Of a stretch of 38,534 bases of DNA, positions 19,699 to 24,590 are shown piece by piece; positions within the stretch are counted from its first letter, which is position 1; each line of letters begins with the position of its first letter. The stretch spans positions 1 through 38,534 of the forward strand of contig DVDX01000071.1 of the NCBI GenBank assembly GCA_015295985.1. Reading direction: 5' to 3'. The stretch comes from Synechococcus sp. M44_DOE_062 (GTDB taxonomy: Bacteria; Cyanobacteriota; Cyanobacteriia; Thermostichales; Thermostichaceae). A program made the position numbers and the translations under genes. The notes below the pieces were generated by a model. It saw only the letters and a program-made list of their open reading frames with translations. It did no database searches and had not been told where the DNA came from.

Positions 19699-20781
19699 AT
19701 GCCTTGCTCCAATTGTGCAGCCTTGCCAGACCCTCTGCAAGGGTCAGGACGGTTGTTTCTCTGGCTGCCGATTCTCCATACCCGCAGCAAAGTGTTGCAA
19801 GCTCTGGCAACTGAGCCTCAGCTTTTTATCCCAACCCAAGTTCAGCCTTTAGAAGATCTTGGTCTGGTCATCTCCATCCCCGAGGGCACCCTTAGGAGGA
19901 CACTGGAACAAATTGCCGGGCTCCTTTCTACAGAGGAGATGCGCTCCAGCCGAGCTTTGTTTTTAGAGGGGGATGCGGATCCCCGCTGGCAGGATTGTGG
20001 GCGGGTGGAGTCCTTGCTGCAGGTGCTCCACCGTGCTCGGGCAGAGTTGCTGATCCAAGTATTGGCGGAAAACCGGCTCACTGCCTATTTTCAGCCCATC
20101 GTCTCAGCTCGGGATCCCAGTCAGGTGGTGGCCCACGAAGCTCTGATGCGGGGGATCGATGCCGATGGGAAGCTGATTAGCCCCGGTCTTCTCCTTGACA
20201 TGGCCCGTGAAGCCCGCCTGCTCTGCCCGTTGGACCTGTCTGCCCGCCGCACTGCTATTGAAGCTGCCATTCAGCACCGCCTAGAAGGGGACCTGTTCAT
20301 CAACTTCAGCCCCACAGCCATTCACGATCCGGCCTTTTGCCTGCGCTCCACCGTTTGGGCTATCAGCCGCGCCGGGATCCCGCCGGAACGGGTGGTGTTT
20401 GAGGTAAACGAGTCGGATCGCAGCCCCGACATCGGCCATTTGCAGAGGATTTTGCAGTTTTACCGGCAGGCGGGCTTCCGCATGGCCCTTGATGATCTTG
20501 GCGCTGGCTATGGATCCCTAAACCTCTTGCACCAATTGCAGCCGGACGTGATCAAGCTGGATGTGGAGCTGATCCGAGGAGTGGATCGGGATCCCTACAA
20601 GGCGGTCATTGCCCAAAAGCTCCTAGAAGTGGCCCAAAACCTGGGGATCACTACTGTGGCGGAGGGGATCGAGACCCCTGAAGAGCTGCGGTGGGCTCAA
20701 GAGCAAGGAGTTAATCTGGTGCAGGGGTTTCTCATCAGCCCACCCCAACCCGCCCCCTTGACATCAAGGCCAGCAGGATAG
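19699..20781 (+). CDS. EAL-domain cyclic di-GMP phosphodiesterase
   Basis: The 360-residue protein has an N-terminal ~120 residues of unknown type that begin with a CSNC pair, then an EAL domain (~125-350). The active-site set is complete: HEALMRG (the EAL motif), Asn in FINFSPTAI, Glu in VFEVNES, the metal Asp pair in ALDDLGAGYGSL, Lys in DVIKLD and Glu in VAEGIET, with the QG near the end. It should therefore hydrolyse c-di-GMP to pGpG. No GGDEF, PAS or membrane segment is present. The 3' end overlaps the convergent MFS gene by 47 bases. A possible Pho box lies upstream. Confidence 0.88.
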   Translation: MPCSNCAALPDPLQGSGRLFLWLPILHTRSKVLQALATEPQLFIPTQVQPLEDLGLVISIPEGTLRRTLEQIAGLLSTEEMRSSRALFLEGDADPRWQDCGRVESLLQVLHRARAELLIQVLAENRLTAYFQPIVSARDPSQVVAHEALMRGIDADGKLISPGLLLDMAREARLLCPLDLSARRTAIEAAIQHRLEGDLFINFSPTAIHDPAFCLRSTVWAISRAGIPPERVVFEVNESDRSPDIGHLQRILQFYRQAGFRMALDDLGAGYGSLNLLHQLQPDVIKLDVELIRGVDRDPYKAVIAQKLLEVAQNLGITTVAEGIETPEELRWAQEQGVNLVQGFLISPPQPAPLTSRPAG

Positions 20782-21910
20782 TCGCTCCTAGCCCTTGGGT
20801 GACTACCGAAAAGAGCACTAAGCCAGTCAGGGAGAAATCGTAAAGCACCCCCATCAGGGCGCTGCCCACAAACCAAGCCAATCCATAGACACTGGTGAAT
20901 AGACCAAAGGCAAAGCCCCTCGTCTCAGGAGCTACCATACCGGCCACCGCCGCCTTCATGATGGATTCTTGGGCCCCCAAACCAATCCCCCAGAGCACCA
21001 TGCCCAGCACCGTCAGAGCATAGGTACCGGAAAAGGCCAGCGGCGCAAATCCAGCCGATACCACCACCACCCCCAGCAAGCTCCACAGCCCCACGCGGTC
21101 GAACAGCCAGCCACATCCTAAGGCAGCCAGGGCATCCACCCCCATAGCCAGGGCATACAGCAGCGGGATTTCTACACCACCGCTTCCCTGCCCATTGACC
21201 TGCTGCAAATGCAAAGCAATCAAGAGGAAATCCGCAAAGCCCATCGCTATACAGGCGGCAGCGAGCAGATAGATCCAGAACAGTCTTGGCAGCTCTTGAC
21301 CTTTAGCAGGTGGGGGATCTGATTCAAACTTTCTCGGATTGGGATAGATCTGTTGTCCCAGCAGCAATACCCCCAACCCCATCAAGGCCGGGATTCCGAG
21401 TACCAAGAACCCACCGCGAAACCCTTGCCCGGCCCAAATCATCACTGCCACCAACAGCGGTCCCCCTACAGCCCCAATTTGATCCATTGCCTCGTGCAGA
21501 CCAAATCCCAGGCCCCGCCCCACCTGCGTAGCAGCATGAGAAAGCAACACATCCCGCGGCGGAGTGCGGATCCCTTTGCCAGTTCGTTCCGTCAACAACA
21601 GCAAGGCCGCCAAAGGCCAATGGCCCACCCAAGCCAGAGCGGGGATCACCAGTGTATTGATGCCATAACCCAGGGTGGTGAGCTGCCAGTAGCGCCCAGT
21701 GCGATCGCTCAAAACCCCAATCCCCAGACGCAAACCATAGGCCAGCAGTTCTCCCCCGCCTGCCACCAAGCCCACCACTGTGCCGCTGGCTCCTAGGGAT
21801 CCCAAAAAAGCCCCAGCAATGCTGCGTGCCCCTTCATAGGTAGCATCGGCGCAGAGGCTGACGATCCCCAGCAGAACAATAAAGCGCCAGGCAGAAGGGG
21901 AATCGGGCAT
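20735..21910 (-). CDS. Major facilitator superfamily transporter
   Basis: The 391-residue protein has about twelve hydrophobic helices and the MFS signature between helices 2 and 3 (LRLGIGVLSDRTGRYWQ), repeated in weaker form between helices 8 and 9 (CGWLFDRVG). The TGKGIRTPPRD segment after helix 4 is typical of a subgroup annotated only as MFS permeases. Substrate is unknown. GAGGAG lies about ten bases before the ATG. The C-terminus overlaps the EAL gene on the other strand. Confidence 0.88.
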   Translation of the reverse strand: MPDSPSAWRFIVLLGIVSLCADATYEGARSIAGAFLGSLGASGTVVGLVAGGGELLAYGLRLGIGVLSDRTGRYWQLTTLGYGINTLVIPALAWVGHWPLAALLLLTERTGKGIRTPPRDVLLSHAATQVGRGLGFGLHEAMDQIGAVGGPLLVAVMIWAGQGFRGGFLVLGIPALMGLGVLLLGQQIYPNPRKFESDPPPAKGQELPRLFWIYLLAAACIAMGFADFLLIALHLQQVNGQGSGGVEIPLLYALAMGVDALAALGCGWLFDRVGLWSLLGVVVVSAGFAPLAFSGTYALTVLGMVLWGIGLGAQESIMKAAVAGMVAPETRGFAFGLFTSVYGLAWFVGSALMGVLYDFSLTGLVLFSVVTQGLGATILLALMSRGRVGVG

Positions 21911-21990: not shown

Positions 21991-22227
21991 ATGTCAATTG
22001 TAACTGTTGATGAAATTCAACGTGATCCCCTAAAGTACCTTCATCAGGTGGAGATGGGTAAAACTCTTGTCATTGTTAAGTCGGGCAAGCCTATTGCTGA
22101 GCTCAGACCTATCTCCAGTAGTCAGCGGTTACGCCCGTTTGGTCTGTGTGCGGGTGAATTTGTCGTTCCAGATGATTTCGACGCTCCTTTGCCAGAAGAT
22201 GTTCTCAACGCATTTGAGAGCCAATGA
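21991..22227 (+). CDS. Phd/YefM-family antitoxin
   Basis: This 78-residue protein reads MSIVTVDEIQRDPLKYLHQV, then KTLVIVKSGKPIAELRPI, the pattern of the Phd/YefM DNA-binding antitoxin fold, and ends in an acidic region (FDAPLPEDVLNAF) that would wrap the toxin. A TTG at 21988 is in frame but the ATG at 21991 is more likely. Its stop overlaps the toxin start as ATGA, so the pair is translationally coupled. The pair is visibly less G+C-rich than its neighbours, which suggests transfer. Confidence 0.88.
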   Translation: MSIVTVDEIQRDPLKYLHQVEMGKTLVIVKSGKPIAELRPISSSQRLRPFGLCAGEFVVPDDFDAPLPEDVLNAFESQ

Positions 22228-22622
22228 GAATTCTTCTAGATACACACATCTTTTTATGGTTTATCAGCTTATGGTTTATCAGCGGCAGCACCCGACTGTC
22301 AGAGCATCTTCGAGACGCAATTCGCGATCCAGAAAACCAGGTTTATCTGAGCGTAATCTCAATCTGGGAAGCCACTTTTAAGCACCAGTTGGGCAAGCTA
22401 CCTTTGCCGGAGCATCCCGCAACTTATTTACCCAGACAAAGAAACCCACATCAAATTGCCAGTCTTGACCTTGATGAGGATAGCGTAGCTCAACTAGCTA
22501 AGCTTCCGCTACTACACCGTGAACCGTTCGACAGAATCCTTATTTGCCAAGCTCTACAAAATGGATTGACCATTGCAACAGTGGATGCAGCCATTCGTGC
22601 CTACCCGGTCGATACTATGTAG
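22224..22622 (+). CDS. PIN-domain (VapC-type) RNase toxin
   Basis: This 132-residue PIN ribonuclease toxin has the acidic active-site residues in LLDTH (Asp6), SIWEATFK, EPFDRIL and ATVDAAI. Compared with the usual family start (LLDTHIFLWFIS-GDxRLS), this one reads IFLWFISLWFISGSTRLS: an exact 15-base tandem duplication (22254-22283) has inserted five extra residues in the first helix, next to the active site. The frame is kept, but activity may be altered. Paired with the antitoxin by an ATGA overlap. Confidence 0.87.
   Translation: MRILLDTHIFLWFISLWFISGSTRLSEHLRDAIRDPENQVYLSVISIWEATFKHQLGKLPLPEHPATYLPRQRNPHQIASLDLDEDSVAQLAKLPLLHREPFDRILICQALQNGLTIATVDAAIRAYPVDTM
22254..22283 (+). repeat. 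15-bp tandem duplication inside the toxin gene
   Basis: TTATGGTTTATCAGC occurs at 22254-22268 and again at 22269-22283 with no mismatch, adding the residues LWFIS in frame. An exact, length-conserving duplication implies recent origin or reversible slippage. Confidence 0.9.
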
Positions 22623-24353: not shown

Positions 24354-24457
24354 CACCAGATCCTCATCTCCTTGCCGTCAGGGTGTCGAAGGGCAGCCCA
24401 GGGAGAAAAAGCCATCCGCGTCAGGAGTGGGAGCACCATCGCGTCCGCAGGGTGGGG

Positions 24458-24590
24458 CCTCAAACAAAGCTGAAGACTCCTACCCCCTGGACTTGCCCAG
24501 AAGTGTAGGAGTCATCAGCCCCAATGTTCGAGGTTAAAACCCTCTTGGAAAATTCCAAGTGAGGCGGTTGCGGTGAACTCCATCACCGGT
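24458..24590 (-). promoter_or_regulatory. Fluoride riboswitch (crcB motif) with terminator-type expression platform
   Basis: The minus-strand RNA matches the crcB/fluoride aptamer. It has stem 1 and loop CGGTG-ATGGAGTT-CACCG (24571-24588), the conserved AACCGCC after it (24569 down to 24563), the 3' half GGGGC pairing with GCCTC as stem 2, then the conserved TGATGACTCCTAC (24505-24517). GGAGT in the first loop can pair with ACTCC in the last segment as the aptamer pseudoknot. GACTCCTAC is also complementary to GTAGGAGTC at about 24475-24483, which would form a hairpin followed by GCTTTGTTTG, a terminator. Fluoride binding would block it and allow expression. Only an antiporter gene follows. 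Stem 2 is longer than usual. Confidence 0.87.

Follow-up and report, generated by a model that had tools for sequence, protein, structure and literature searches.

Fluoride riboswitch and antiporter gene at the locus

The window, a stretch of 38,534 nucleotides from Synechococcus sp. M44_DOE_062, carries a fluoride riboswitch aptamer (24596-24499, minus strand), followed on the same strand by a gene (24356-22704) whose product of 550 amino acids joins a cation/proton antiporter fold to a C-terminal USP domain. We refer to this protein as antiporter-USP. Beyond it lie a PIN-domain gene on the plus strand (22224-22622) and an MFS transporter gene on the minus strand (20735-21910). The initial annotation had placed a fluoride riboswitch at 24505-24590 of the minus strand, about 150 bases upstream of an antiporter with a C-terminal USP domain, and had proposed scoring the region with the Rfam crcB covariance model. 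This range falls within a match to RF01734 that covers all 64 model positions at 51.1 bits (cmscan, E 1.8e-11), above the gathering score of 34 bits that serves as the curated cut-off, and the GTG start at 24356 lies 142 nt past the aptamer end. No other RF01734 match occurs in this genome. A custom model built from 30 cyanobacterial aptamers, the window aptamer among them, gave it 66.9 bits.

The conserved parts and pseudoknot strands named in the initial annotation could all be read at the locus. P1 is formed by CGGTG (24588-24584) and CACCG (24575-24571), followed by AACCGCC at 24569-24563 and by GGCTGATGACTCCTAC at 24520-24505, while the pseudoknot strand GGAGT (24581-24577) pairs with ACTCC (24512-24508), both on the minus strand. 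Thus P1, AACCGCC, GGCTGATG and the GGAG/CUCC pseudoknot, the parts by which class RF01734 is recognized, are all present. The riboswitch shares with the crcB motif (RF01734; Weinberg 2010, PMC2864571) these conserved parts, a score above the cut-off and a hairpin that overlaps the aptamer, and differs from it in the stretch separating AACCGCC from GGCTGATG, which at 42 nt exceeds the model consensus by ~30 nt. Judged by its sequence, it is an ordinary member of this known class.

RNA folding and comparison of leaders place an alternative terminator-like hairpin, the putative expression platform, at 24522-24466 on the minus strand. In the predicted fold, the aptamer 3' strand GCTGATGACTCCTAC doubles as the 5' arm when a hairpin forms with the downstream GTAGGAGTCTTCAGC, after which comes the T-rich tail TTTGTTTG (24468-24461, minus strand). 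Since the 3' strand is common to both structures, the ligand-bound aptamer and the OFF hairpin would be mutually exclusive, the kind of platform that is expected of class RF01734. The overlap of aptamer and predicted hairpin is plain to read in this leader. A terminator scan did not list the window hairpin, the T-run of which is imperfect.

A script was used to count hairpin pairs in 48 leaders taken from antiporter loci. The pairing CUA(C/U)/(G/A)UAG, at a spacing of 18-23 nt, occurs in 45 of them; where kept, it is usually longer (UCCUA(C/U)/(G/A)UAGGR), and three of these 45 leaders display a C-G to U-A double change. Overlapping terminators have been described for the fluoride riboswitch class, and the ligand was inferred to raise expression (Weinberg and co-workers, PMC2864571). 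The window leader is best read as a ligand-ON attenuator, with a translational component possible in other lineages. In addition, the switching hairpin has a loop that can pair with a segment ~40 nt downstream, such as GACTTG/CAAGTC near the start codon, as noted in seven leaders (L012, L014, L017, L020, L021, L025 and L030). A stem may cover the start codon in some leaders, a possible three-way switch.

An antiporter with an altered ion site

The open reading frame at 24356-22704 matches Na_H_Exchanger (PF00999, 100.9 bits against a cut-off of 26.2, E 9e-29) and Usp (PF00582, 74.9 bits against a cut-off of 24, E 1e-20), which bears out the domain composition given in the initial annotation. 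The antiporter fold spans residues ~15-386 and the USP domain residues 417-532, where the ATP-loop motif G-2x-G-9x-G(S/T) is intact (GKRGHRGWEQVLVGS). Among solved structures, NHA2 is the closest in sequence, with ~30% identity over the membrane domain. In a fold search, the AlphaFold model (mean pLDDT 79) reached Z 41 with MjNhaP1 and Z 28-33 with NHA2 of human and bison; KefC was also among the structural matches, weaker than NHA2 and NhaP. NCBIfam gave weak matches with potassium/proton antiporters as well as with a KdpD-like USP potassium sensor. The PF00999 score above the cut-off, together with the antiporter fold, places the protein in the CPA superfamily. As in NHA2 (SLC9B2) and NhaP-type antiporters, the modelled TM4 and TM11 helices are broken; unlike NHA2, the protein has Ser-Asp in place of Asp-Asp, an additional Glu at the TM4 break and the USP tail.

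The paired Asp-Asp in TM5 is the mark of CPA2 electrogenic Na+/H+ antiporters. The NHA2 pair aligns with Ser155-Asp156, the first Asp being replaced by Ser in all copies: among 116 clade sequences, a set in which some genomes are represented twice, 115 have Ser-Asp and one has Ser-Asn. Ser155, Glu121, Asp146, Lys349, Glu92 and Arg321 are invariant in this set, and the last three align with charged residues that are conserved in NHA2. The ion site is unusual, yet it keeps the charged residues of a proton-coupled antiporter, and the transported ion is not readable from the sequence alone.

Absence of crcB in the window genome

Two genomes of the same genus (G004 and G029) display, all in one direction, a DUF1997 gene, the switch, the antiporter, crcB, a short ORF and an MFS gene. 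The window has the antiporter between the same flanks, but the position of crcB is taken by the PIN-domain gene (PF01850), which lies on the opposite strand and outside the switch. The MFS transporter gene is the conserved flank past the missing crcB; its DNA is 82% identical to the gene on the far side of crcB in G004. Another member of the genus (G079) has the antiporter, a gap and the MFS gene, with no crcB between them. CrcB (PF02537) gave no match in the window genome (G000), while control genomes gave matches; it was likewise absent from G068 and G079 in the CrcB search of 242 genomes, and no crcB remnant was found in the window. A search with cyanobacterial CLC-F found none in the window genome. 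The only CLC of this genome was rejected as a CLC-F, being ClcA-like and without a match to the cyanobacterial CLC-F. The simplest history is that crcB was lost while the switch and the antiporter were kept, the alternative being a gain of crcB in the relatives. The PIN-domain gene is probably half of a toxin-antitoxin pair, and G068 has an ORF of similar size at the same place.

Distribution of the switch, the antiporter and known exporters

We searched one sample of 242 cyanobacterial genomes and found matches to the aptamer in 60, CrcB in 151, the antiporter in 107 and CLC-F in 12, the last called at E below 1e-148, well separated from ordinary CLCs at ~30% identity. The genes that follow 56 above-cut-off aptamers are antiporter orthologues in 48 cases, CLC-F in six, CrcB in one and another gene in one. 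The antiporter adjoins CrcB in 16 sampled genomes and CLC-F in six named loci plus G190; where antiporter and crcB or clcF are both present, they are often adjacent and in one orientation. These associations support a tie between antiporter-USP and fluoride, as the initial annotation had proposed, to the extent that gene order and conservation can indicate it. No upstream aptamer was detected in 58 of the 107 antiporter genomes, partly owing to contig ends, and a lax-threshold search upstream of the antiporter in these switch-less loci found none beyond known sites in L065 and L077. In L077, which comes from a member of the same family, a weak fluoride aptamer (2545-2619, 29 bits) lies on a different contig from the antiporter. 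Short crcB-like fragments that look like decaying genes were observed close to the antiporter in L116, L100, L095 and L108.

Antiporter and exporters tend to exclude each other. Both were present in 40 genomes, the antiporter only in 67, an exporter (CrcB or CLC-F) only in 120 and neither in 15, so that both exporters are missing in 67 of 107 antiporter carriers versus 15 of 135 non-carriers (Fisher p 1.5e-17). The anti-correlation holds when stratified by family (OR 0.056, p 2.4e-10) and by genus (OR 0, p 4.3e-7), strata that correct for shared ancestry partly, and in the worst case, with unlabelled genomes in one large mixed stratum (p 2.8e-5). The control gene KdpA also displayed an anti-correlation with the antiporter, a weaker one (genus-stratified p 0.003), which indicates that some of the background is structured; with the exporters, KdpA had no significant stratified association (genus p 0.1). 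The 15 genomes without antiporter, CrcB and CLC-F indicate that no known exporter is strictly required. The comparative pattern is new, whereas fluoride switches before Na+/H+ antiporters were already known. The initial annotation mentions neither this pattern nor the lack of crcB in the window genome.

Outside cyanobacteria, the antiporter with its aptamer was found in Methylotuvimicrobium buryatense and in a Methylobacter genome, at 66-67% identity. CrcB was not found in these two methanotrophs; a CLC-F search, run without a positive control, was empty. The methanotroph copies (L145 and L154) have the cyanobacterial-type aptamer and lack the conserved hairpin with 22-nt spacing, so their expression platform may differ. 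The antiporter is also carried on Picosynechococcus plasmids, including pAQ7 of PCC 7002. Searching the literature for work on cyanobacteria or PCC 7002 and fluoride, we found nothing relevant.

A fluoride-defence transporter that may stand in for CrcB

Based on these findings, we postulate that a fluoride-responsive ON switch probably controls a stand-alone fluoride-defence transporter that is able to stand in for CrcB. Without fluoride, the aptamer 3' strand would pair with the downstream GTAGGAGTC, and the terminator-like hairpin would form and keep the gene OFF. With Mg-fluoride bound, this strand would be held in the aptamer pseudoknot, the hairpin would be blocked and the antiporter-USP mRNA would be made. 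The protein would then lower the fluoride burden enough to replace CrcB, which is missing from the operon and the genome. We take the ON direction from the known behaviour of the riboswitch class, and the functional substitution for CrcB from the distribution of the genes. Several observations weigh against this proposal: the cation/proton antiporter fold, the published opinion that Na+/H+ antiporters linked to riboswitches serve pH homeostasis (PMC11139923), the partial correction that strata provide and the weak anti-correlation of KdpA with the antiporter, the antiporter genomes without a detected aptamer, the genomes without antiporter or either exporter, and the imperfect T-run that the terminator scan passed over.

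The protein may instead be a helper that exchanges Na+ or K+ for H+ and repairs pH or ion damage from HF entry, leaving the exporter unreplaced. Its fold and Pfam family are those of cation/proton exchangers, it sits in operons with crcB and clcF, and the published view of riboswitch-linked antiporters agrees (PMC11139923). A helper would be expected in the company of exporters, yet most carriers lack both, and the anti-correlation persists inside families and genera; we consider this role possible, although it is not the one we would expect. The replacement pattern suggests that antiporter-USP is more than a pH helper and may take over the function of a fluoride exporter. The same pattern could be an artefact, produced by shared ancestry or by ecology and not by function, for which the anti-correlation of KdpA with the antiporter speaks. 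KdpA, however, is not significantly associated with the exporters under stratification, and the effect seen for the antiporter withstands both genus strata and the worst-case placement of unlabelled genomes, which makes an artefact the least probable of the explanations considered here.

If antiporter-USP does replace CrcB, the manner in which it does so can be read in different ways. It may export fluoride directly, as a CPA-fold, H+- or cation-coupled protein forming a third prokaryotic class beside Fluc/CrcB and CLC-F. The replacement pattern in 242 genomes, the absence of crcB alongside the antiporter in part of the genus, the crcB fragments beside it in L116, L100 and L095, and the altered, invariant ion site (Ser155 adjoining Asp156, plus the extra Glu121, where NHA2 has Asp-Asp) are consistent with this. 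Lys349, Glu92 and Arg321 are all kept, equally fitting a cation/proton exchanger, and, to our knowledge, no anion-moving (halide-moving) member of the cation/proton antiporter family has been described. It is a tentative and rather unlikely proposal that antiporter-USP is a third-class fluoride exporter that repeatedly took the place of CrcB and CLC-F in cyanobacteria and reached methanotrophs together with its riboswitch. Alternatively, KefC-like K+ efflux with H+ influx might slightly acidify the cytoplasm, so that fluoride leaves as HF and CrcB is replaced without any fluoride being moved by the protein. KefC is among the structural matches and the weak NCBIfam matches point to potassium transport or sensing; the KefC matches are weaker than those to NHA2 and NhaP, and weak-acid reasoning makes this a poor route at alkaline outside pH, leaving it improbable. 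Taken over all modes, cation/proton exchange, as a helper or as an indirect means of lowering fluoride, has slightly better than an even chance, direct efflux is doubtful, and the small rest falls to neither.

Relation to known systems and significance

Na+/H+ antiporters are the next commonest kind of riboswitch-linked gene after the exporters, and were assigned to pH homeostasis (PMC11139923). Antiporter-USP resembles them in its link to a fluoride riboswitch, and differs in being fused to USP, in being the principal gene served by the switch in cyanobacteria and in its complementarity to the exporters. The fluoride operon of Enterobacter cloacae FRM also joins a fluoride switch, crcB and a usp gene; there, UspA is separate and an antiporter is absent among the six genes (PMC5533749). 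With CrcB/Fluc and CLC-F, which are known to export fluoride, the antiporter has operons and riboswitch in common, while their folds are unrelated to its own. In Pseudomonas putida lacking CrcB, a benzoate transporter contributes to fluoride tolerance (PMC13104614), thus unexpected transporters can take part in this process.

In the absence of CrcB and CLC-F, a cyanobacterium would appear to be left with no fluoride exporter, and antiporter-USP is a candidate to fill this gap. The gene is annotated merely as a cation:proton antiporter, and an orthologue is carried on pAQ7 of the engineerable Picosynechococcus PCC 7002. Through it, the role of riboswitch-linked antiporters becomes directly testable. 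Antiporter-USP may be an unrecognised stand-alone fluoride-defence transporter.
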